Part shown: in pieces, positions 41,794-59,524 of the stretch
Numbering within the stretch: the first letter of the stretch is position 1
Layout of the letters: the number at the start of each line of letters is the position of its first letter
Assembly (NCBI GenBank): GCA_030068525.1
Contig: JASJOS010000004.1
Location: forward strand, 186,001 to 250,000
DNA length: 64,000 bases
Source of the DNA: Xanthocytophaga flava
Lineage (GTDB): Bacteria > Bacteroidota > Bacteroidia > Cytophagales > 172606-1
Direction of reading: 5' to 3'
The notes under the pieces: model-generated
Told to the model about the DNA's origin: nothing
Seen by the model: only the letters and a program-made list of their open reading frames with translations
Databases searched by the model: none
Program-made: the position numbers and the translations under genes

Positions 41794-42723
41794 ATGAAAA
41801 GAACAGGTTGGATAGTACTGGTATTGATACTGGTACTGGCAGGAGGCTATCTGGTTTTCCGCTGGCAACAGCGGTCTCAGAAAGATCCTGAGGCAACATT
41901 TATTAAGCCTAGGATCGAAATGGCTGGTATGCAAATCCTTCATATAGACAAAGACTATACGAAAGGAAATATGAAAATACTGATTCACAATCCAGCCCCG
42001 GTGGGCTTTGAAGCTGATAGCCTGGCTTATCAGTTGTACATTGCAGGCATAAAAGTAGTGCAGAGCTCCTATCCCAAACATGTCGATATCAATAGCAATG
42101 ACAGTAGCCTGATAACTCTGCCGGTGACTATTAAAAATGAGGAACTGATCCAGACATTGAAACAGTTGGAACAGAAGGGGCTGGATAGCACAGAATACAC
42201 AGCCAAAGCAAACATTTATACAGACTTACCCTTTTTAAAAAAGAAACCTGTTGAGCTGGAAGTCTCAAAAAAGCTTCCTCTTTTACGGCTTCCGGAGCTT
42301 AAACTTGTTGACGCAGATCTGGATAAGCTTGGATTCAAACAGACTAAATATTCTGTTCGTACGGAAATTACCAATAAAAACGTATTTCCCTTCGTACTAC
42401 GTAATGCCCGCTTTCAGATGAATCTGAATGGGGAAAAATTTACCGAAGGAACCATGCCAGAAGTAGTTAATATTCCAGCTAAGGGTAAAGAAACAATAGA
42501 AGTACCGATGAGTATAAAACCCAACCAGTTGATGGAAACTGGAATAGACTTGTTGAAGAAAAACAAAAAGAACACCTATCTATTTGTCTTTGAAGCCAAT
42601 CTGGTAGACAAAGAGGACAATAAAATGTTTGACAATAGTAAATTAAAGATGGAGAGTTCGGGTGATCTGCGTGAACTAATAAAAAATACCCGTGAGGTTA
42701 TAAAAGAGAATAAGAAAAAATAG
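41794..42723 (+). CDS. LEA type 2 (water-stress/hypersensitive domain) protein
   Basis: The 309-residue protein has one N-terminal membrane anchor (residues 5-25, GWIVLVLILVLAGGYLVF). Two beta-sandwich segments follow in the LEA_2/WHy pattern: IEMAGMQILHIDKDYTKGNMKILIHNPAPVGFEADSLAYQLYIAG and LKLVDADLDKLGFKQTKYSVRTEITNKNVFPFVLRNARFQMNLNGEKF. The C-terminus is charged and helical. Proteins of this family are linked with desiccation or membrane stress; here it is probably fixed to the inner membrane and faces the periplasm. It ends at a strong terminator and opens the stress-like cluster. Confidence 0.82.
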   Translation: MKRTGWIVLVLILVLAGGYLVFRWQQRSQKDPEATFIKPRIEMAGMQILHIDKDYTKGNMKILIHNPAPVGFEADSLAYQLYIAGIKVVQSSYPKHVDINSNDSSLITLPVTIKNEELIQTLKQLEQKGLDSTEYTAKANIYTDLPFLKKKPVELEVSKKLPLLRLPELKLVDADLDKLGFKQTKYSVRTEITNKNVFPFVLRNARFQMNLNGEKFTEGTMPEVVNIPAKGKETIEVPMSIKPNQLMETGIDLLKKNKKNTYLFVFEANLVDKEDNKMFDNSKLKMESSGDLRELIKNTREVIKENKKK

Positions 42724-42803
42724 CATAGGAAGATTCAAAATGAATGTTCCAAATATTACCAATGGTATTCTTTTTTATAGGATATTTACTAGCTGACCTT
42801 CAT

Positions 42804-42836
42804 AAAAAAGCCTTTCTGATTCAGAAAGGCTTTTTT
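42804..42836 (+). terminator. Rho-independent terminator after the LEA-type gene
   Basis: AAAAAAGCCTTTCTGA (42804-42819) pairs with TCAGAAAGGCTTTTTT (42821-42836), giving a long stem with a T run. It lies 80 bases after the stop. Confidence 0.92.
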
Positions 42837-42902
42837 GCGGTAGAATGTATTATCAACTTAAAATAATAGCTTAAGAAAGCCAACGTAATTGTATAGTATG
42901 CG

Positions 42903-42977
42903 TTTCAGGAATAAATCAGTAATAAGTGGGGTAGTTATCGTATTCCTGCGAAAAATAATTACAGTTTATTCCTGAAA
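42903..42977. repeat. Long-spaced perfect 13-base inverted repeat
   Basis: TTTCAGGAATAAA (42903-42915) and TTTATTCCTGAAA (42965-42977) are exact complements 49 bases apart. A third ATTCCTG lies at about 42942-42948. No gene is present from 42724 to 43420. It could be an operator pair or a folded RNA upstream of promoter P1. Confidence 0.5.
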
Positions 42978-43234
42978 ATTTTTAGTATCTGGTTTGGATA
43001 ACCTACCTTCAATTTGTTGTTGATACATACTCCGAACCTGATTTTGTAAGTCTATTAGCTAGTAACAGATTTATTATCTGAGAAGCAGAAGCAACACCTA
43101 CAACTCGGCTATCTATGCGAAGAATGTTCCGGTTTATTCATAAAATTTTAAAAGGTTGCTCGAAATTACTTGTATTCATTTGTTAATCAGTACAATATAA
43201 ATTTGCACAAGAAAATAAAATTCTAAAAGAGGAT

Positions 43235-43299
43235 AAATACCTGTTTTGTAAATTGCGTATTTATCCTCTTCTCTAAAAAGTATTCATTTCAGATTTTTG
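43235..43299 (+). promoter_or_regulatory. Composite dyad promoter P1 (drives 43421 gene)
   Basis: AAATAC 43235-43240, 16 bases, GTATTT 43257-43262, three bases, CTCTT 43266-43270, 21 bases, GATTTTTG 43292-43299 as the -7 box. The dyad here extends to a perfect 14-base arm (43227-43240 with 43257-43270). It matches four others in order, spacing and direction toward the gene. Confidence 0.72.
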
Positions 43300-43420
43300 T
43301 TGTAAATCAGGAAACCACACGAAAACAAGAGAAAAATAGAACCCCATACCATCTAATCCCACTCAGTTTAGATGTACTAATTGATTCTTTCCTGTTTTTA
43401 TACATTTTTTTACCTTTAGT

Positions 43421-43741
43421 ATGTATCAAAAATTAATAGACCGCACCTTATTCCAATCGGTTAAACTACTTGTTCAAGACCCGGAAGTGCATTTTTTGTT
43501 TTGCGATTATTTGCGACACGTTGTTACCTATAAGCAATTTTTCTTTTTCCCAGTACCTGCAAGTCGGATAGCAGATCTTGAGAATGCAAAAGAGGAGTTG
43601 ATGATAAGCCGATATATACTGCGCCTCCATTTGAAACTCTATTCAAAGCTGCGATCACAGGGGGTGTTCATCCGGAAACTGACCCGGCTTCCTGTTTCAG
43701 AAATCGAAAAGCTTCTCGATATTTTTGATACGACCCGATAA
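43421..43741 (+). CDS. Small protein of unknown function, likely in the dyad-promoter regulon
   Basis: I do not recognise this 106-residue protein. It has no signal peptide or membrane helix and is basic: MYQKLIDRTLFQSVKLLVQDPEVHFLFCDYLRHVVTYKQFFFFP, then a helical ENAKEELMISRYILRLHLKLYSKLRSQGVFIRKL and EKLLDIFD. A run of four Phe occurs near residue 40. Promoter P1 lies about 120 bases upstream, which supports that the frame is expressed. It is not related by eye to the other unknown proteins of the cluster. Confidence 0.62.
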   Translation: MYQKLIDRTLFQSVKLLVQDPEVHFLFCDYLRHVVTYKQFFFFPVPASRIADLENAKEELMISRYILRLHLKLYSKLRSQGVFIRKLTRLPVSEIEKLLDIFDTTR

Positions 43742-43842
43742 AGTTTTCGATTGCTGACATTATTTTTAGACAAGTATCATGGTAAAGACACATAGTCTAA
43801 CTTCTACAGGATAGACACCTGTCACTCAAACGGTTATACACA

Positions 43843-43907
43843 AAATACTTATTTATAATAACAAGTATTTTGTCTCTTTTTCGGGTAAAAGTCTTATCCA
43901 ACCTTTA
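43843..43907 (+). promoter_or_regulatory. Composite dyad promoter P2
   Basis: AAATAC 43843-43848, 16 bases, GTATTT 43865-43870, three bases, CTCTT 43874-43878, 21 bases, AACCTTTA 43900-43907. The dyad arms extend to 11 bases (ACAAAATACTT and complement). The -7 box is the weakest of the five; a better TAAATTTG lies at 43919-43926. Confidence 0.65.
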
Positions 43908-43914
43908 TGGCCTG

Positions 43915-44212
43915 CATATAAATTTGTACAGGCTATGGTTTCTATTAGTATTCCAAAAGGTCAACTCAAAATACCGTAAGTAACTCAAAAAGTGGATTTA
44001 GCAACAGCATATGTATATAATCTCTATTTCTATTTACATCCTTTGGAGGCAAGCCTGTATGGATCTTTCATTGTTTCCAGTTAAACTTCGTTCAGAACTG
44101 CAATACATCAGGAGAAAAGTAAGATACATTCTTAAGCTACCAGGCTTAAACAGATACTTAGGCGAGCCAAGACCTCTTATCAAAAAAGCCACTCTTAAAA
44201 AGAATGGCTTTT
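43915..44212 (+). other. Candidate short transcript between P2 and a terminator
   Basis: P2 faces right and the next right-facing signal is the hairpin at 44184-44212, so a transcript of about 300 bases is expected. It could be a non-coding RNA or a message for a small protein: a frame from 44011 (or Met at 44059) to 44214 gives a basic peptide, MDLSLFPVKLRSELQYIRRK and on, whose last codons overlap the terminator stem. Neither reading is proven. Confidence 0.35.
44184..44212 (+). terminator. Hairpin terminator downstream of P2 unit
   Basis: AAAAGCCACTCT pairs with AGAATGGCTTTT (44201-44212) with one mismatch; A run before and T run after. It separates the P2 unit from the convergent gene ending at 44285. 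Confidence 0.75.
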
Positions 44213-44284
44213 AGTACATAACGAGTTAATTAGTACACTAAATCATATCATTCCTTCTTTTATGGCAAAGATCTTGAAACTATC

Positions 44285-44689
44285 TTATTCTGTATGTATA
44301 AAGGCTGTTGGTGCCGGTGCCTTGAACTTGTGATACTCCCGGACAAAAATATAGATCCACGTTAACAGAAACAGAACCTGTACCCATCCATCTACTATAT
44401 AGATATCCGAAATGACGTCACGTAACGGATAATAGAAGTCCACAAAGGCAAACGCCAAAGCTGTAAGTGCTCCAAGTACAAAAGCAGGTCTGAAGTCGGT
44501 ACGGATAAACAGATAACTCAGCAAAGTCAAGGCAACAGGTATGCCTAACGCCCCTACCGTCTTGACTAGCCATATATCCGTCTTATAGCCTGTTACCTTC
44601 ATAAAGCTCTCTATATGCACCAGTGGCCATATGGCTATGATCAGTATATACAGGCCTTGTATCCATAGGAGTGATCTAAAAACTTTCAT
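44285..44689 (-). CDS. Four-helix membrane protein of unknown function
   Basis: The 134-residue protein has four predicted membrane spans: about 8-27 (LWIQGLYILIIAIWPLVHIE), 42-62 (VKTVGALGIPVALTLLSYLFI), 68-86 (PAFVLGALTALAFAFVDFYY) and 98-118 (VDGWVQVLFLLTWIYIFVREY). The C-terminus is short and cytosolic. It is not a family I can name. It lies 66 bases after the small coiled-coil gene on the same strand and could be co-transcribed with it and with Mn catalase. Confidence 0.75.
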   Translation of the reverse strand: MKVFRSLLWIQGLYILIIAIWPLVHIESFMKVTGYKTDIWLVKTVGALGIPVALTLLSYLFIRTDFRPAFVLGALTALAFAFVDFYYPLRDVISDIYIVDGWVQVLFLLTWIYIFVREYHKFKAPAPTAFIHTE

Positions 44690-44755
44690 ATCTATCTAGC
44701 CGTAATAAAGAGAACTTACATCAGGTTCTACAGACCTTTCATTTGACAACATTAA

Positions 44756-44995
44756 TTATTTACTAGTATCTGCAAGCAAGACAGAAGTCTGCTGTTCTGT
44801 TTGCTTTGAGTTATTAATTAACAAACTGAAAGAACGTTTTTCTAGTCTCTCCTCCTCCAATAATATGTCCAGCTCTTTGCGGCACTGACCTTGTATCTGA
44901 ATCAGTTCACTGATGACATTACTCTGGGCTGCAATTTGTTTTCGCTTTTCCTGAATCCGCACCCGGATTGGCTTGATAGCAGTTTTTGAGATCAT
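44756..44995 (-). CDS. Small coiled-coil protein, paralogue-like to the 49096 protein
   Basis: The 79-residue protein is almost all helix with heptad-like spacing: RVRIQEKRKQIAAQSNVISELIQIQGQCRKELDILLEEERLEKRSFSLLIN. It shares length, charge pattern and the LLEEE-K core with the 65-residue protein at 49096. There is no signal or membrane part. It lies downstream of the Mn catalase gene, behind that gene's terminator. Function unknown. Confidence 0.65.
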   Translation of the reverse strand: MISKTAIKPIRVRIQEKRKQIAAQSNVISELIQIQGQCRKELDILLEEERLEKRSFSLLINNSKQTEQQTSVLLADTSK

Positions 44996-45058
44996 GACAA
45001 CTCTTAATTAAAACGTGAAAGGGCACCTGGCAATTAGTAAAGTTGTATAGTATCTGTA

Positions 45059-45105
45059 TAGCCATGAACTAACCTTCCGGATTGAAAGATTTTAATTCAT
45101 GGCTA
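45059..45105 (-). terminator. Hairpin after the Mn catalase gene
   Basis: TAGCCATGAA (45059-45068) pairs with TTCATGGCTA (45096-45105) 26 bases after the catalase stop. There is no long T run after the stem, so termination may be partial and some transcript may run into the small coiled-coil gene. Confidence 0.55.
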
Positions 45106-45130
45106 CCTATCAACTTTTACTTTTAAAGCC

Positions 45131-46024
45131 TTAAAGCTTTTTACCTACCTCACTAATAAATTCACTAATCTTTCCACCTATTCCCATTGATCCTTCCATT
45201 TGCTCTACCTGAGCATGTCCTTCCGGTTTGGGTGGATTTAATACAGGTTCTTCTCCATACGGTTGTGCCTTTTCAAAGATAAACTGGCCTTTGCCGTCTA
45301 TAGAGGTTCCTGAAGACCAACGCTGTCCCTGCTGAGAAGCTCCATCCGCAATATTTGTTGAAACAAACGTATAGCTGAATTCCTGCTTTTCCTGCGTTTG
45401 CGGGAAGCTGTTTGGAATCGGATGTACATTCTGTACGCCTCCCAAATCCTCTAATACTGCCAGCCACTGATTCTGGTGCATTGTATCACGGGCAATCAGA
45501 AAGGATAACATATCTTTCATACCTGGATCGTCGGTTAATTCCCAAAGGCGGGTAGCCAATAATCGCCCTGTTGACTCAGCCATTACGTTGGCATACATAT
45601 CTGCAGCCAGATTGCCGCTGCCTACCACCCAGGAACCGTTGAAAGGTACGCCATTGGCATCTGTTGCCATGGCTGCCATACCCGACGAAAGAATGTGGCG
45701 AACATCCATTCCACCCATAGCTGCACCTACCAGTGGGTTATCGCGTGCAATCTGATCTTTCAGCTCATTGGATGCTGTATCCAGATTCATCGCTACTGCA
45801 GTGCAAAGCATTTCAATGTGGGATATTTCCTCTGTACCAGTCTCCAGAAGCATATCTCTGTATTTGGCAGGTCCACGTGCTCCCCACGCCTGAAACAAAT
45901 ATTGCAAACATACACGGATCTCACCTTCGATGCCTCCAATTGCCTGTTGAAGCATTCTGGCAAACAAAGGGTTGGGCTTTTCTACCCGAACGGTAAACTG
46001 GAGCTTTTTATCATGATAAAACAT
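45131..46024 (-). CDS. Manganese catalase
   Basis: The 297-residue enzyme breaks hydrogen peroxide with a two-manganese centre in a four-helix bundle. The metal ligands of the family are all seen: Glu35 (GGIEGEIR), Glu66 and His69 (TEEISHIE), Glu150 (MAESTGR) and His183 (ARDTMHQNQW). The N-terminus MFYHDKKLQFTVRVEKPNP is typical. The C-terminal 60 residues form the usual extended tail. It is cytosolic. Promoter P3 of the five-copy family lies about 120 bases upstream, so peroxide defence is probably part of that regulon. Confidence 0.95.
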   Translation of the reverse strand: MFYHDKKLQFTVRVEKPNPLFARMLQQAIGGIEGEIRVCLQYLFQAWGARGPAKYRDMLLETGTEEISHIEMLCTAVAMNLDTASNELKDQIARDNPLVGAAMGGMDVRHILSSGMAAMATDANGVPFNGSWVVGSGNLAADMYANVMAESTGRLLATRLWELTDDPGMKDMLSFLIARDTMHQNQWLAVLEDLGGVQNVHPIPNSFPQTQEKQEFSYTFVSTNIADGASQQGQRWSSGTSIDGKGQFIFEKAQPYGEEPVLNPPKPEGHAQVEQMEGSMGIGGKISEFISEVGKKL

Positions 46025-46141
46025 AGCTGTAAGGGTTTAGGGAAGTGAACAAAAAAGCACTGCAGCAGCCAGTTTTTGAAGTTATACTATCTCTACTCTT
46101 TCACTTCTCAAACTGGCTTGCCCGTGCAAATCAACCTGTTA

Positions 46142-46206
46142 CAAAAGTGGCTATCAGAATCTGGCCATAAAAGAGAGTAAATACCCAATTTTAAAAATAA
46201 GTGTTT
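46142..46206 (-). promoter_or_regulatory. Composite dyad promoter P3 (drives Mn catalase)
   Basis: Reading the minus strand: AAACAC 46206-46201, 16 bases, GTATTT 46184-46179, ACT, CTCTT 46175-46171, 21 bases, CACTTTTG 46149-46142 as the -7 box. The predicted start site is near 46135, about 110 bases before the catalase ATG. Confidence 0.72.
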
Positions 46207-46286
46207 GCCACATAAAAGGTATGAGAGTCATTGTTTGAACCGAACCCATCACCCACTTCTTCCCTCCGTTCGGTTCTTATTAGTCC

Positions 46287-46970
46287 TTACGAAACTATCG
46301 CTTCCTCCCACTTGTTGTGACTACAAACCGGACAAGTTTGTTTGCCCGCTGGTTGTGGACTTCCGCACTGAGAGCAGACTTGTACATTGGGTGCTTTTTT
46401 TTGCTGATCCCGAAACTCTCGATCCCATATAGGTATCATTGACAGGCCTGGCTTAGCCTGTTTGTTTTCTATAATGGTAAAAGTGCCATCGGCTTCCATA
46501 TAGAGTCGTTCAATCGTACCCAGATGTGCAGTCCCACTCTGGCGAATAGCCGCTACAATTCGTTCTTTGGGAAGTCCGATTTTACGTAAAGCTTTCAACT
46601 GCAATACGCCATCTTCGACCAATGTTGAATACTTGCCATTCACTACATTAGAAAACTTTTCATTGGAAAAAGCCCAGAGAGAGACCAGTCGTTGAATACC
46701 TACAATGACAATTGCCACTATCAAGGCAGGTATAAGTCCACGGGAAGGTTGTTGCAACGGAACCCCAATGGCAGCTGCCAGCGATACCAGGGCTGCCAGT
46801 TCTGAACGATTGCGAGACAACACCTGCGACTTACCCGATAAACGCAAAGCCACAACCAGAATAATAAAGATAATCAGGAAGCGAATGATTACCTCTATCA
46901 GAAAAACAGGAGGCGCATCGCCAAAAAAGATCCGGGTAAAGTCGTCGATTTTAATATCTTCAGCTTTCAT
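46287..46970 (-). CDS. DUF421 (YetF-like) membrane protein with C-terminal zinc ribbon, copy 2
   Basis: The 227-residue protein begins with three membrane helices (FLIEVIIRFLIIFIILVVALRLSG, LAALVSLAAAIGVPLQ, LIPALIVAIVIVGIQRLVSLWA). The cytosolic YetF/DUF421 domain follows (EKFSNVVNGKYSTLVEDGVLQLKALRKIGLPKERIVAAIRQSGTAHLGTIERLYMEADGTFTII). The last 30 residues hold CSQCGSPQPAGKQTCPVC, a four-cysteine zinc ribbon. It starts six bases after the stop of the upstream paralogue, so the pair is one operon. DUF421 has no proven biochemical role that I know; spore and membrane stress links exist in Bacillus. Confidence 0.87.
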   Translation of the reverse strand: MKAEDIKIDDFTRIFFGDAPPVFLIEVIIRFLIIFIILVVALRLSGKSQVLSRNRSELAALVSLAAAIGVPLQQPSRGLIPALIVAIVIVGIQRLVSLWAFSNEKFSNVVNGKYSTLVEDGVLQLKALRKIGLPKERIVAAIRQSGTAHLGTIERLYMEADGTFTIIENKQAKPGLSMIPIWDREFRDQQKKAPNVQVCSQCGSPQPAGKQTCPVCSHNKWEEAIVS

Positions 46971-46976
46971 ACTAGC

Positions 46977-47759
46977 TTAGTGTTTATACGATGAAAAAAT
47001 AATTTTCTGAGAATCCTCATTGGCTTCTTCAAAGACAGGACTTCCATCCTTAGATGGTGGAACTTCAGTAATTAAGGCCTTTGTCCAACTATTAGCCTGA
47101 CAATTGGGACAAGATACCTGTTGATCCGTGTCCTTTTCTCTGATTACCCAGCCGCAACTATGACATGCCAATAACGCATCTGAACTGGATTGGCGGTTAA
47201 CAATTACTTGATCAGTGAAGGGTAAGAGAGAAAGTCCAGGCTTGGGCTTGTCACTGTGATAAATACTCACTATTCCACACGCTTCCAGATATACCCGTGA
47301 AAGCTGGCCCAGATGAGTTATTTTTTTTGAACGCAGATGAGCAAAGATCTGCTCCCGTTCAAAGCCTTCCTGACATATCTGATTGAGCTGGAGAACACCA
47401 TCTTTTACAAACAGACGGACATCTCCTTGTACCAGCCGTTCCACTTTTGCATAGGCAACAGAAAGTCGGTTCACTCCTCTTAGTGCAACAAACACACAAA
47501 GTAAAATCACAACTCCTGGCAAAAGACCTCGTATCGGATCTTGCATTGGAGCGGAAACAATAGCACCTAGCATGATCATAATCGACATCTCGGTAAGGCT
47601 TAACTGGGCGTTCATCCTCTTTCCAAGCAATCGGACAATCACCAGCAGAAACAGAAAAATAAATACCGACCGTAAAAAGACCTCTACCAGAAACACTACC
47701 GGTGCGTCACCCAGCAGGATGCGCTGTATATCCCAGAGATGAATATCTTCTTTTTTCAT
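46977..47759 (-). CDS. DUF421 (YetF-like) membrane protein with C-terminal zinc ribbon, copy 1
   Basis: The 260-residue protein matches the downstream gene over its whole length: IQRILLGDAPVVFLVEVFLRSVFIFLFLLVIVRLLGKR, SLTEMSIMIMLGAIVSAPMQDPIRGLLPGVVILLCVFVALRGVNRLSV and LVQGDVRLFVKDGVLQLNQICQEGFEREQIFAHLRSKKITHLGQLSRVYLEACGIVSIY. A zinc-ribbon-like CHSCGWVIREKDTDQQVSCPNC is near the end, followed by a 40-residue polar tail missing in the partner. The two arose by tandem duplication and have diverged strongly. They may form a hetero-oligomer in the inner membrane. Its promoter lies in the 290 bases upstream; none of the dyad copies is there. Confidence 0.87.
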   Translation of the reverse strand: MKKEDIHLWDIQRILLGDAPVVFLVEVFLRSVFIFLFLLVIVRLLGKRMNAQLSLTEMSIMIMLGAIVSAPMQDPIRGLLPGVVILLCVFVALRGVNRLSVAYAKVERLVQGDVRLFVKDGVLQLNQICQEGFEREQIFAHLRSKKITHLGQLSRVYLEACGIVSIYHSDKPKPGLSLLPFTDQVIVNRQSSSDALLACHSCGWVIREKDTDQQVSCPNCQANSWTKALITEVPPSKDGSPVFEEANEDSQKIIFSSYKH

Positions 47760-48052
47760 ATAGTTCTTGTATTGGAGTTTAGTTGCAGAATGATTTGGTT
47801 GTAAGTCAACTTCTTTCTATTGATACTTACTGTTTATAGAAGGGTACGGTAGTAGAGGATGCCACAATGGATCGAACAAATGATTAATTTTAGACACTGA
47901 TCTGGCTCTATCCTTTTAGTTGTAAAAATTGAATCCAGTAGCTGTTCCTGATTTACACTTTCAGTCAGAATGATACATGGCAATGTACTAGCACATAGTA
48001 ATCGTATCGAATCGAAAAAGCCAACCTCCTAGTCATGGCGGGAAAAAAGTAG

Positions 48053-48544
48053 TTACTTACTATCCTCATTCAGTTTTTGTTCAGCACAAACCAGTGTTAA
48101 CCCCAACAAAATGATTTGAATAATGTCATTACAGCAAGAAGCCTGACCTATCTGAGATCGAAGATAAACCCATTGTTCTTGCAGAAACAGAACTGCGGTA
48201 TCTCTACTCTCACCATCCAGAATCAATAGGTCTGTATCAGGCATGTCCACATTGTGGTGACGCATAGTATAGGAATAGTTCCCAGACAATTCATCCCAGG
48301 CATTTTCTGTATCAGATTTGATAATGGTCAGCAACTTGTCAAATAGCTCTCTATCCTCTTTCCAGTCCTCTACCACAATCAGTTCCATCATCCGACCCGG
48401 ATTATAGTTTTGTAGCTGATGCGGTTTATCAGCAAAGGCACAATGAATGAAGTGTTCATACATTCTGCCGCAAGCAAGCTGAAAGTGATTAATCATACTT
48501 TTGTCTCTTTTATACCAGAATCTGTTTTTGTTACTCTCTAGCAT
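48053..48544 (-). CDS. Unknown protein driven by dyad promoter P4
   Basis: I do not recognise the family. The start at 48544 (MLESNKNRFWYKRDK) gives 163 residues; the frame is open back to 48670, but that extension is basic, low in family-like character and contains a hairpin with T runs (48579-48607), so I prefer the shorter form. The protein is soluble in appearance: NYNPGRMMELIVVEDWKEDRELFDKLLTIIKSDTENAWDELSGNYSYTM, DTDLLILDGESRDTAVLFLQEQWVYLRSQIG, and a Cys pair near the end. Promoter P4 lies upstream, which puts it in the same regulon as Mn catalase. Confidence 0.6.
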   Translation of the reverse strand: MLESNKNRFWYKRDKSMINHFQLACGRMYEHFIHCAFADKPHQLQNYNPGRMMELIVVEDWKEDRELFDKLLTIIKSDTENAWDELSGNYSYTMRHHNVDMPDTDLLILDGESRDTAVLFLQEQWVYLRSQIGQASCCNDIIQIILLGLTLVCAEQKLNEDSK

Positions 48545-48578
48545 ATAGTTTTCTGTCGGTTCGTTTTCAGACTTACAA

Positions 48579-48607
48579 AAAAACCTTCCTGAAACAGAAA
48601 GGTTTTT
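48579..48607. terminator. Hairpin in the leader of the 48053-48544 gene
   Basis: AAAAACCTTCCTG (48579-48591) pairs with CAGAAAGGTTTTT (48595-48607) with one mismatch; A and T runs lie on both sides. It stands between promoter P4 and the preferred start codon, so it would act as an attenuator or release a short RNA of about 150 bases. Confidence 0.6.
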
Positions 48608-48733
48608 GCTCCTAAGTTCTCGGCTCGGTAAAGCCAGTAATATGAAACAGCCAATATGATCAAAGACCATATATATTTTCCCAGAAGTTACTCTACATTG
48701 GATAACTCTCTAGGGTTATGAAGTAAGATGTTA

Positions 48734-48798
48734 CAAAGTTTGTCAACAGAATATTCTTATAAAAGAGGGTTAATACGCAATTTAACAATCGCGTATTT
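48734..48798 (-). promoter_or_regulatory. Composite dyad promoter P4
   Basis: Reading the minus strand: AAATAC 48798-48793, 16 bases, GTATTA 48776-48771, ACC, CTCTT 48767-48763, 21 bases, AAACTTTG 48741-48734. It faces the unknown gene 48053-48544. Confidence 0.72.
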
Positions 48799-48962
48799 GA
48801 CGCATACAGGTACATAAATGTTCTCAAAAACAGAAGAGATACATCCATTTTCGGGCCTATTGAGCCATTTGCATAGTATAGCTTCCGTAAAAGAACCTTC
48901 TACCTCAGAATAGAAGCAGGATTAACACCCATATAATCTACTGAATACCAACAAATTGTACT

Positions 48963-49027
48963 AAATACTTATTTTAACAATTAGGTATTAACTCTCTTTT
49001 GCAGCGCAATCAGATTGGTAATCTTTG
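48963..49027 (+). promoter_or_regulatory. Composite dyad promoter P5
   Basis: AAATAC 48963-48968, 16 bases, GTATTA 48985-48990, ACT, CTCTT 48994-48998 running into TTTTG, 21 bases, AATCTTTG 49020-49027. It faces the small coiled-coil gene at 49096. P4 and P5 are divergent, 166 bases apart. Confidence 0.75.
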
Positions 49028-49095
49028 TATTCTGTTGACACTTTATTCACAAGCAAAGTAAGTCCGTCTCCAGATTTACATAACTCCTCCAATCA

Positions 49096-49293
49096 ATGAA
49101 AAAGACAATTAACCATTCAACTGTACTCCAAATGTCTACAGAACGAAAGCATACGATAACTGTATTACGTGCTCTTTTGGATAGACAACAAGACCTTATC
49201 CGTCAGATTCGCCTAGAACAGAATCAGATTCGAGTCAAACTACAACGGTTACTGGAAGAAGAAAAGCATGGGTATATAAAAAGAAGGTCCTGA
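49096..49293 (+). CDS. Small coiled-coil protein, first gene behind P5
   Basis: The 65-residue protein is basic and helical: MSTERKHTITVLRALLDRQQDLIRQIRLEQNQIRVKLQRLLEEEKHGYIKRRS. It shares the QxQxxxR/K-x-L..LLEEE core with the 79-residue protein at 44756. No signal or membrane segment. The start at 49096 lies about 65 bases after the predicted transcription start of P5. A second gene of unknown family follows after 86 bases. Function unknown; dimerising coiled coil is an inference. Confidence 0.65.
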   Translation: MKKTINHSTVLQMSTERKHTITVLRALLDRQQDLIRQIRLEQNQIRVKLQRLLEEEKHGYIKRRS

Positions 49294-49379
49294 TTATACC
49301 ATCCTGGACAACCCTATAGTATAACTACCATTAGTACGAGCAACTTAATACTACAAACCAAACAATTTCCCGCCCTGAT

Positions 49380-49871
49380 ATGAAAATTATGAGAGACTTT
49401 GAAGAATTTACCATTTTCAGTCCCGGAAACCTTGCAACTCGCTGGAACCTTTGTTCCAGTGTTGTTTCTTTGTTGTATGCGACTACATTTCCGGCAGGAG
49501 GACGAGAGTATAAGTTTGGACTTAAATTCTATCAGGATACTCCTATATACTATGCGCTAGTTGACTGGAAACTCAAGCAAATTGCACGGGTATCTCCTCT
49601 TGGGCAAGTAGATGAGCTTTATCAGATGGTAGAAAAAGAAAGAAAATACAGGCGCTACCAATCAGCCGTTGCGAAAGCATTAGAGGAGATAAAAGTGGAA
49701 CAGATAGAGACCCGTTTTTCTGAAGATGTGTATATCACAGTGAACCGTGTTATTCCCTATTCCCGCATTTATGATAGTTCAACTCTCCCTTCTTCGCTTT
49801 GTGTTGAATTTATGTACTATCCATATTACGGATGGCAGTCAGAATCCATTGATCAGCTCATACCCCTCTAA
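49380..49871 (+). CDS. Unknown cytosolic protein, paralogue of the 51285 protein
   Basis: The 163-residue protein (Met4 at 49389 is an equally good start) is clearly related to the 170-residue protein at 51285. Shared segments are FPAGGREYKFGLKFYQDTPIYYALVDWKLKQIARV with FSAGGIHYRYGLKLYKNEPLYYVLVEWSKKQIVRV, then ELYQMVEKERKY with NLYEMVEKQKKY, and near the end EFMYYPYYGWQ with EYQYYPLFGWQ. It is rich in Tyr and Trp, with no signal or membrane helix. I know no named family for it. It is co-oriented behind P5 and the small coiled-coil gene. Confidence 0.75.
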   Translation: MKIMRDFEEFTIFSPGNLATRWNLCSSVVSLLYATTFPAGGREYKFGLKFYQDTPIYYALVDWKLKQIARVSPLGQVDELYQMVEKERKYRRYQSAVAKALEEIKVEQIETRFSEDVYITVNRVIPYSRIYDSSTLPSSLCVEFMYYPYYGWQSESIDQLIPL

Positions 49872-51284: not shown

Positions 51285-51797
51285 ATGCAGCAATTCACAG
51301 ATTTTATACTCATCGAGCCGTCTGACCGGCTGCCATGGGATTTAGGAAAAAGAATGAAGTCGTTGCTTTCTGCTGATGTATTTTCAGCAGGTGGAATACA
51401 CTATAGATATGGGCTTAAGCTATATAAAAACGAGCCACTGTATTATGTTTTGGTAGAATGGAGCAAAAAACAAATTGTTCGGGTCTGTGAAATGGGGCCT
51501 TCGGATAACCTGTATGAAATGGTTGAAAAACAGAAAAAGTATCTGACTGCAAAAGAGTTTATTGACAGAGGATTGGTACAGCTAAGGGCCACCCAGATAT
51601 ATGAAAGGCCAGTTACTGATATTCCGCTAGTTGTTAGAAAATTATTTCCAGATCCGGAATCCAAATCAATGGATGGTTTACCCATTGGTAAGAAGATAGA
51701 GTATCAGTACTATCCCCTGTTTGGATGGCAGTTTGAAAGAGTGACTGAGACTATTTGTTTGGTTGATACTGAGCTAGAAAGATATTCTATTGATTAG
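51285..51797 (+). CDS. Unknown cytosolic protein, paralogue of the 49380 protein
   Basis: The 170-residue protein starts MQQFTDFILIEPSDRLPWDLGKRMKSLL and shares the AGGxxYxxGLKxYxxxPxYYxLVxWxxKQIxRV core and the ExxYYPxxGWQxE end with the 49380 protein. It has a longer acidic tail (CLVDTELERYSID). No signal peptide, membrane helix or known active-site motif is seen. The promoter family dyad is not well formed upstream. A DUF305 membrane protein follows after 127 bases on the same strand. Confidence 0.75.
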   Translation: MQQFTDFILIEPSDRLPWDLGKRMKSLLSADVFSAGGIHYRYGLKLYKNEPLYYVLVEWSKKQIVRVCEMGPSDNLYEMVEKQKKYLTAKEFIDRGLVQLRATQIYERPVTDIPLVVRKLFPDPESKSMDGLPIGKKIEYQYYPLFGWQFERVTETICLVDTELERYSID

Positions 51798-58433: not shown

Positions 58434-59524
58434 AAGGGTTGTTTTGATTAAGTGATTTTTATGGCTCTCACATAGCAGAGAATTTCTGCCGGATGTAAGT
58501 GTATACCATCTGAAGATCCGTTTATCCGAACCTAGGTATGAACAGAATTTTATATTATCTGCAGGAATACTTATACAAAACAGTGCCTTGTCTAAAGAGT
58601 AGATTGATATAGGGTGCGTTAAATACCTGTTTTTAAAAAGGAGTATTTGACGCACATTGGAGTGGTGGCAGATACCCAGGTGTGAAGTTTATGAAACGAA
58701 ATAGTGTGTTCTAATAGGCATAAGCCTAGCTTTTGTATACCAGGCTATGGATTGGGCCGACTGCATAAAATACTTATTTTCAATATTTTATAGCATGTAT
58801 TTGCAGTTGGACTGCTGGCCGGGGCAAGAACAGGATGGCGGGGCATGGTTTTTATCATCCCTCCCCAATCTGTACAAAGCCGATCCAGCTGAGATAAGGT
58901 GTCTACATAAATGATAGAAAAGTCCGGAATAGGATTTAAGATATATACGAGATAAGCACACCAGGAACTCGGCCGTTTCCTGCTACATTGACAAACTTTA
59001 TCAGATACTATCTCAACAGTTTTTACAGGATTTGGCAAGCGCCCAACATCTCTTTACAATACGACTATTTTGTATGCTGAAAATAGAAGCTGAGCAGTTC
59101 CTGCTAAAACAGAAGCCAGTAACAACAATTTGGTCATTCAGGAAAACGTACTGTGTTGCTTCCCTATAATCTATTCTAGCTGCACATAAAAGTAGCAGCT
59201 TACCACTAGGTAAACTTGCCTCAGAAGAAAAACAAAACATCAGAGCAGGAATGTTTTTTTTACTGGTATCCACCTATCTCGTATGACTGGTCATTGGTAG
59301 ATAGCAGTTGGAAACCCTATACACAACACGTTTGGCTTTCCTGGCTTGTTTGCTCAGTAAATGTCTGATCTGAATTGTATTTACTCAGAACATGTATACC
59401 AGGCATACCTTTACAAACAGGTAAAGACACTTTTTAAACTGGAATTTACAATATGTGAGAATCTGAATAGTAAGAAAGACAATATCCTATTAGAATCAAT
59501 ATAGCTTTTACCCAATCAACTCTC
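58434..59524. other. Gene-poor 1.1 kb region between DUF4142 and GH2 genes
   Basis: It contains the dyad at 58614-58655 and a looser relative at 58761-58806 (AAATAC and GTATTT 23 bases apart with CTGCA/TGCAG outside). Frames of 86-97 codons on the minus strand have no protein-like character. Nothing else was recognised. Confidence 0.45.
58614..58655. promoter_or_regulatory. Dyad related to the P1-P5 family, 13-base arms
   Basis: GTGCGTTAAATAC (58614-58626) pairs with GTATTTGACGCAC (58643-58655) with one G-U pair; the two half-sites AAATAC and GTATTT are exactly 16 bases apart. CTCTT at +3 is absent. It lies about 190 bases upstream of the DUF4142 start. Confidence 0.6.

Follow-up and report, generated by a model that had tools for sequence, protein, structure and literature searches.

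A family of composite sites in the genome of Xanthocytophaga flava probably represents class II activator-dependent promoters of a single regulon, at which an inverted repeat (dyad) would be bound by a response regulator of the NarL/FixJ family that aids the primary-sigma RNA polymerase. The sites were followed outward from a 64,000-nucleotide stretch of contig JASJOS010000004.1 ("the window" below; C44:186001-250000 of the home genome, G000, which has 9.49 megabases in 63 contigs). Each site joins two six-base arms 16 bases apart, a CTCTT element 3 bases further on and, after another 21 bases, a -7 box that is mostly NANNTTTG. Judged from its sequence, this is a composite promoter of fixed geometry with a class II-like activator layout. 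The model has its basis in the motif, its exact spacings, its conservation, the presence of one Sigma70_r3 protein and the adjacency of a regulator; binding, activation, start sites and stress induction are what we infer from them. The main comparison genomes are the sister species of the same genus (G002), two members of genus g3 in the same family (G004 and G006) and a Saprospiraceae metagenome-assembled genome (MAG; G041).

Composite sites and their distribution

A preliminary description of the window had listed five sites, and all are exact in position and spacing (43235 plus, 43843 plus, 46206 minus, 48798 minus and 48963 plus), as are the variants it named: AAACAC once (46206) and TTTA once (43843). 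It missed a sixth exact reading of dyad and CTCTT, on the minus strand of the dyad at 43235-43262: from 43262 down to 43198, this reading has its own CTCTT and, 21 bases on, a -7-like box, CAAATTTA. Site 1 (43198-43299) is, as a prediction, a bidirectional promoter. The sites in the window are as follows.

43235-43299, plus strand: composite site 1, plus reading; dyad 43235-43262, CTCTT 43266-43270, -7 box GATTTTTG at 43292-43299
43198-43262, minus strand: composite site 1, minus reading of the same dyad; CTCTT, -7 box CAAATTTA; both readings kept in the sister species
43843-43907, plus strand: composite site 2; -7 box AACCTTTA
46142-46206, minus strand: composite site 3; first half-site AAACAC; -7 box CACTTTTG; 118 bases upstream of the Mn catalase open reading frame (ORF)
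48734-48798, minus strand: composite site 4; -7 box AAACTTTG; 64 bases upstream of ORF 48053-48670
48963-49027, plus strand: composite site 5; -7 box AATCTTTG; upstream of ORFs 49096-49293 and 49380-49871
58621-58648: dyad flanked on either side by TGCGT, lacking a -33/-7 tail; predicted binding site without a promoter

With up to three mismatches the window holds 9 matches, some being opposite-strand readings of a single dyad; 100 dinucleotide shuffles gave 1.19 on average and never more than 4. In the home genome, dyad and CTCTT together are exact in 15 readings on 14 dyads (in C12, C33, eight in C44 and five in C62). One mismatch adds two more, C5:299833 and C63:131151, the latter dropped as a site: it lies within an ORF and has no -7 box. 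Matches at two mismatches are mostly noise (38 in all versus 24 for the pattern read backwards); among them C62:105507 and C8:20435 retain a -7 box and a counterpart in the sister species. The total is 18 composite readings on 17 dyads, counted in the fetched home regions under a definition that demands a -7 box. All 18 are intergenic, and ORFs of at least 80 amino acids (aa) take up 77% of the regions in question. The statement that each site points to the next gene or transcript on its own strand is borne out in part. Three readings, C62:102345 plus, 43843 plus and 43227 minus (site 1 read on its minus strand), have no same-strand ORF of at least 80 aa ahead of an opposing gene, and a fourth, C44:253844 plus, has only a 73-aa ORF downstream.

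Across 39 genomes, the 65-base composite with at most one mismatch gave 16 readings in G000, 16 in G002, 1 in G004 and 0 in the other 36; the reversed composite gave 0 in all 39 at the same threshold. The dyad with CTNTT at up to two mismatches was found 23 times in G000 and 27 times in G002, versus 2 and 0 reversed, and 6 times in the other six genomes of the family, versus 3 reversed. A chance origin of the motif is ruled out by the shuffles, the zero reversed-pattern matches and the single offset of the -7 box described below.

Promoter architecture

Among the 15 readings picked without regard to the -7 box, NANNTTTR lies at offset 21 from CTCTT in 14, with NANNTTTG in 11; at any other offset from 8 to 44 it occurs in at most 1 of 15. 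As had been noted for the five window sites, the consensus first T is missing, with one exception here: the first base is C in 6, G in 4, A in 4 and T in 1 of the 15, and across all composites the first T of TAnnTTTG is present in 1 of 18. The form with the first T is TANNTTTG; the composites mostly carry NANNTTTG. The Bacteroidota consensus is given as TAnnTTTG, plus TTTG near -33 (PMC7366714), and the -7 box of Flavobacterium psychrophilum is placed at -12 to -5 (PMC9723704). On the latter scale CTCTT spans about -38 to -34, the near arm -47 to -42 and the far arm -69 to -64. By the -7 offset and the published consensus, CTCTT(TT) does occupy the -33 position at which primary-sigma promoters of Bacteroidota have TTTG; TTTG itself is absent there, and CTCTT, usually followed by T, stands in its place.

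The relation of the dyad to this core can be read from nine dyads in the fetched home regions that have no promoter tail. TGYGNT tends to precede the arms of these promoterless dyads (T in 13, G in 12 and G in 13 of 18 arms) and the far arms of the composites (T 15, G 14, G 13 of 18). On the promoter side of the composites, AAGAG (CTCTT reversed) stands in the TGYGNT place (A 18, A 18, G 18, A 15, G 16 of 18). Selection of the composites had required CTCTT-like letters; the far arms had not been chosen for TGYG. Because AAGAG replaces TGYGNT on the promoter side only, CTCTT looks like a promoter element overlaid on the outer part of an activator half-site. The dyad as an integral element of promoter recognition is unlikely, since both arms of promoterless dyads carry TGYGNT. 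The site adjoins the -35 region at a fixed distance (GTATTW-N3-CTCTT, in sites found by that pattern), and the -7 offset is fixed as well. The earlier proposal that an activator on the dyad turns on weak primary-sigma promoters fits best; its composite design, fixed geometry and activator-like layout are strongly supported, and NarL/FixJ is the likely family of the activator.

In the mechanism that these features suggest, a NarL/FixJ response regulator, most likely the product of G000:C62:102744-103478, would bind the inverted repeat TGYGNTAAATAC-N16-GTATTTANCRCA. The arms, 22 base pairs apart, would lie on one face of the DNA (about -69 to -64 and -47 to -42), probably with one or two dimers bound, and the promoter-side arm would yield its outer bases to CTCTT(TT) at the -33 position. 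The bound regulator would touch the primary-sigma RNA polymerase, making up for a -7 box (NANNTTTG) that lacks its first T. A HisKA_3 kinase would phosphorylate the regulator, and the output would resemble a general stress response: Mn catalase, RsbR-RsbS-RsbT, DUF421 proteins, a PAS/GAF-HisKA_3 kinase, a receiver protein and small coiled-coil-like ORFs.

Conservation in the sister species

Fifteen pairs of sites could be aligned without gaps between G000 and G002. The two arms agree at 99% and 100% of positions, the 16-base gap at 92%, CTCTT at 96%, the 21-base spacer at 89% and the -7 box at 95% (its TTTG at 100%). Outside the composite, identity is 64% over the 48 upstream bases, 69% immediately downstream and 56% beyond that. 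Both members of each pair were found through the motif, a choice that favours its columns.

Behind the minus reading of site 1 (42750-43227, minus strand), about 250 bases are 96-100% conserved in G002, and the only ORF within them that is identical in the two genomes has 20 aa. Because the conserved stretch has no long ORF, an RNA product, perhaps a small RNA, is possible there. No Rfam family fits 42750-43227 minus. Over 42700-49600 a single Rfam match was returned at E <= 0.5; at 21.9 bits against a gathering threshold of 50, and of a human type, it was set aside as chance. A terminator scan of 42700-44350 found none; by eye, an inverted repeat followed by a T run at 42804-42836, not listed by that scan, resembles a two-way terminator.

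A candidate regulator

The regulator most likely belongs to the NarL/FixJ family, and the candidate is the protein encoded at G000:C62:102744-103478, outside the window and beside site C62:102345. It has a receiver domain (PF00072, 106.5 bits) and a GerE domain (PF00196, 59.2 bits); its best NCBIfam match is MctR, at 150.5 bits versus a cut-off of 300. The sister species G002 has a counterpart with 96% identity. Relatives at E <= 1e-40 occur in 6 of 59 genomes, all of the same family. The homologue in G004 adjoins that genome's strongest site, which is also its sole match in the composite search, and the best match in G006 (66%) is likewise site-adjacent.

A genome-wide search of genus g3 with a profile of the site, R1, extends this pattern: 3 of the 4 sites of at least 30 bits lie within 1 kilobase (kb) of a GerE gene (G004 C1:2486331, G006 C138:38412 and G006 C130:28882). 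R1 had been trained on three of the four sites (not C130), without regulator information. With 27-32 GerE matches per 9 megabases, chance adjacency is about 1% per site by a hand estimate. Across 30 response-regulator loci from six genomes, 6 have a site at E <= 1e-3. In a tree of the 30 proteins whose loci were fetched for regulator relatives, a sample smaller than the full set of GerE proteins, all six site-adjacent regulators fall in one 14-member clade (support 95/91), with 0 of 16 outside it. A site accompanies all 5 clade members that come from the home genus or g3, and 1 of the 9 from g2. Candidate partners are also at hand: HisKA_3 kinases are encoded in the C62 cluster and behind site C44:410000, and a nearby one (L031:143-1417) has HisKA_3 at 30.7 and HATPase_c at 54.2 bits.

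Alternative explanations

Several observations weigh against assigning the dyad to this regulator, and they give substance to a serious, if unlikely, alternative: the same class II composite with another transcription factor on the dyad, NarL regulators being frequent neighbours or targets. In the home genome only 1 of 19 sites of at least 30 bits lies within 1 kb of a GerE gene, the other 18 being elsewhere. Among genomes of site-poor genera (G003, G007), 8 of 9 clade members lack a site, and only 1 of 30 loci of a Flavobacterium regulator subfamily has one. The site-adjacent members are not grouped in a single sub-clade (the label changes 4 times, a number as low as in 21 of 500 shuffles), and one of the six regulator-adjacent sites, in G007, is weak (20.3 bits). 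Site C62:102345 runs towards the 3' end of the regulator gene, and the sites in G004 and at G006 C138 point away from the regulator genes beside them, so self-regulation is not evident. The dyad also departs from the Escherichia coli NarL site, which has TAC heptamers in a 7-2-7 arrangement; here TAC and GTA are 16 bases apart. Against another factor, 3 of the 4 strong g3 sites lie next to members of one regulator clade, and by eye no other transcription-factor family stands beside the g3 sites, a point on which no systematic search was made. The NarL/FixJ regulator remains the probable occupant of the dyad.

The identity of the sigma factor can be questioned too. A dedicated extracytoplasmic function (ECF) sigma might read CTCTT-N21-NANNTTTG (or GTATTW plus CTCTT), with the dyad as an accessory or as part of the -35 element. 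The rarity of the primary-sigma first T, the difference between CTCTT and TTTG, and the ECF genes seen by eye near some sites would agree with this. It is nevertheless improbable: NANNTTTG otherwise keeps to the primary-sigma -7 box in sequence and position, the dyad also occurs without promoter elements, and SM6, the motif assigned to ECF sigmas, has a CGT box instead (PMC9723704). Sigma70_r3 matches number 1 in G000, 1 in G002, 3 in G004 and 4 in G006; the single protein in each home-genus genome sets aside an alternative sigma with region 3 there, and it speaks against the ECF reading as well, though ECF sigmas carry no such domain. Least credible of all is a dyad that serves as a repressor operator. 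It is a palindrome and some copies lack a promoter tail, as an operator might. An activator, however, better suits its position entirely upstream of -33 at a constant distance of 3 bases, along with a -7 box that stays at one offset and goes on lacking its first T.

Target genes

The genes behind the window sites include Mn catalase, a coiled-coil-like ORF (by eye) with its neighbour, and uncharacterised ORFs, as the preliminary description had said. The ORFs near the sites in the window are listed here.

43421-43741, plus strand: 106-aa ORF behind site 1; no Pfam match
44285-44689, minus strand: 134-aa hydrophobic protein; no Pfam match; 69% identity over 114 aa to the ORF behind C62:92095
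44756-44995, minus strand: 79-aa ORF, coiled-coil-like by eye; follows Mn catalase on the same strand; the regulon has six small ORFs of this kind
45131-46024, minus strand: Mn catalase; Pfam PF05067, 282.9 bits; NCBIfam NF052557, 342.5 bits, just below the cut-off of 350
46287-46970, minus strand: DUF421 (YetF-like) protein; Pfam PF04239, 42.9 bits
46977-47759, minus strand: DUF421 (YetF-like) protein; Pfam PF04239, 30.7 bits
48053-48670, minus strand: ORF behind site 4; 36% identical to the ORF behind site G002:C3:681741
49096-49293, plus strand: 65-aa ORF behind site 5; coiled-coil-like by eye
49380-49871, plus strand: 163-aa ORF; 37% identical to ORF 51285-51797

Behind site 4 the order is ORF 48053-48670 and then both DUF421 proteins. 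Of the paralogues 49380-49871 and 51285-51797, only the former stands behind a composite site. Targets elsewhere include paralogues of the hydrophobic ORF (69%) and of a DUF421 protein (67%), a receiver-only protein, another four small ORFs that look coiled-coil by eye, a 1733-aa PAS/GAF-HisKA_3 kinase, a 118-aa uncharacterised ORF, an 869-aa ORF that is ABC permease-like by eye, and an RsbR-RsbS-RsbT operon. This operon (G000:C8:18458-20129, L038 4458-6129) encodes a protein with RsbRD_N (95.1 bits) and STAS (57.8 bits), a STAS protein (31.3 bits) and a HATPase_c protein (48.6 bits). It follows a composite site in both G000 and G002 (G002:C7, L165), in the same order, and in G002 it is followed by a HATPase and SpoIIE protein. 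The label "stress-like regulon" fits these genes, and it is gene content that suggests it.

The C44 cluster also encodes, by Pfam, a sorbosone dehydrogenase, an alpha-amylase family enzyme, DUF892 and SDR proteins, none directly behind a composite site; tail-less dyads lie upstream of the sorbosone dehydrogenase and alpha-amylase family genes. By eye, a gene resembling the same sorbosone dehydrogenase follows a dyad in G007. Another tail-less dyad (G000:C62:142551, L239 2052) lies between a 580-aa ORF and a DUF421 ORF that shares 62% identity with window 46287-46970.

Occurrence beyond the family

An exact, slightly wider composite was found in 10 stretches among 84,980 species genomes, all Bacteroidota: eight in Flavobacterium, one in a Flavobacteriaceae MAG and one in a Saprospiraceae MAG. 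The eight Flavobacterium matches are one orthologous site and count as one observation. In G041, the distal arm occurs at ten places, three of which have two mismatches and no exact arm. The other seven carry NANNTTTG at the home-genome distance in 5, a base short in one, and no box in one; G041 was chosen for holding a composite, and one of its five sites was first found with the composite. No NANNTTTG occurs at offsets 30-55 or 58-89 of the seven.

Over 395 Bacteroidota genomes, R1 matched 63 at E <= 0.01 (home genome included). This count is no proof, because many matches are weak and three of them (L141, L146 and L148) fall within ORFs; nor can R1 matches test the -7 box, which R1 includes, a test that the offset counts in G000 and G041 do provide. 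By eye the spacing is kept at L123, L124, L128, L129, L134, L135, L142, L227, L228, L230, L233 and several G016 loci, and NarL-like regulators adjoin several matches (the L090 group, L137, L138, L139, L147 and L227). The regulator adjacent to L090 in Flavobacterium was found in 67 of 295 genomes at E <= 1e-40. A phylum-wide tie to this one NarL subfamily is not supported: only 1 of the 30 loci returned for the L090 regulator subfamily has a site at E <= 0.3.

Two side observations come from these stretches. In the Flavobacteriaceae and Saprospiraceae MAGs (L101, L108) the promoter plan precedes ORFs that by eye are RebB-like and tail-collar-like. In Flavobacterium (L106 1505-1563, L099 and L103), near-identical long palindromes surround CCCCGTAAAAATACCTGGTT at several intergenic places, at one of which two direct copies of the arm are 22 bases apart.

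Relation to known systems and biological meaning

The composites share with sigma-ABfr primary promoters (PMC7366714) a -7 box, NANNTTTG, in the primary-sigma frame and an element, CTCTT(TT), at the -33 place of TTTG; they differ in the first T (1 of 15), in CTCTT for TTTG, and in an obligatory upstream dyad at a fixed distance. Among the sections of PMC9723704 drawn on here, the six sigma motifs do not include the dyad, and, as the preliminary description had supposed, no published description of the motif was found in titles and abstract openings. A regulator of a known protein family is plausible: like NarL/FixJ and HisKA_3 systems, the home genome has a receiver and GerE protein along with HisKA_3 kinases in the same clusters and regulon, whereas its dyad has a 16-base gap and its binding is here predicted from sequence.

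The targets are stress-type by gene content, and general stress responses of the SigB and EcfG types have similar kinds of target (Mn catalase, rsbRST). The home genus, in contrast, has no second Sigma70_r3 sigma, and control seems to run via an activator. The RsbR-RsbS-RsbT stressosome is matched by RsbRD_N and STAS, STAS, and HATPase_c proteins in one home operon, which differs in having no SigB-type output and in standing itself behind a composite site in both species.

To our knowledge, how Bacteroidota coordinate a general stress response is largely open; no published account was found in titles and abstract openings. The present analysis joins about 17 composite promoters to a candidate regulator, to candidate kinases and to a stressosome operon in one testable chain. 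That G041 and Flavobacterium share the spacing suggests a rule for finding activator-dependent promoters in the phylum. A broader idea, tentative and more doubtful than the regulon itself, is that the fixed plan (an inverted-repeat activator site, 3 bases, a CTCTT-like element, 21 bases and NANNTTTG) might be an old, phylum-wide signalling output of Bacteroidota, and that in the home family a NarL-type regulator might run a general stress response without a stress sigma, one that also makes the stressosome. If true, such a stressosome-making activator regulon would explain a general stress response without SigB in these bacteria.

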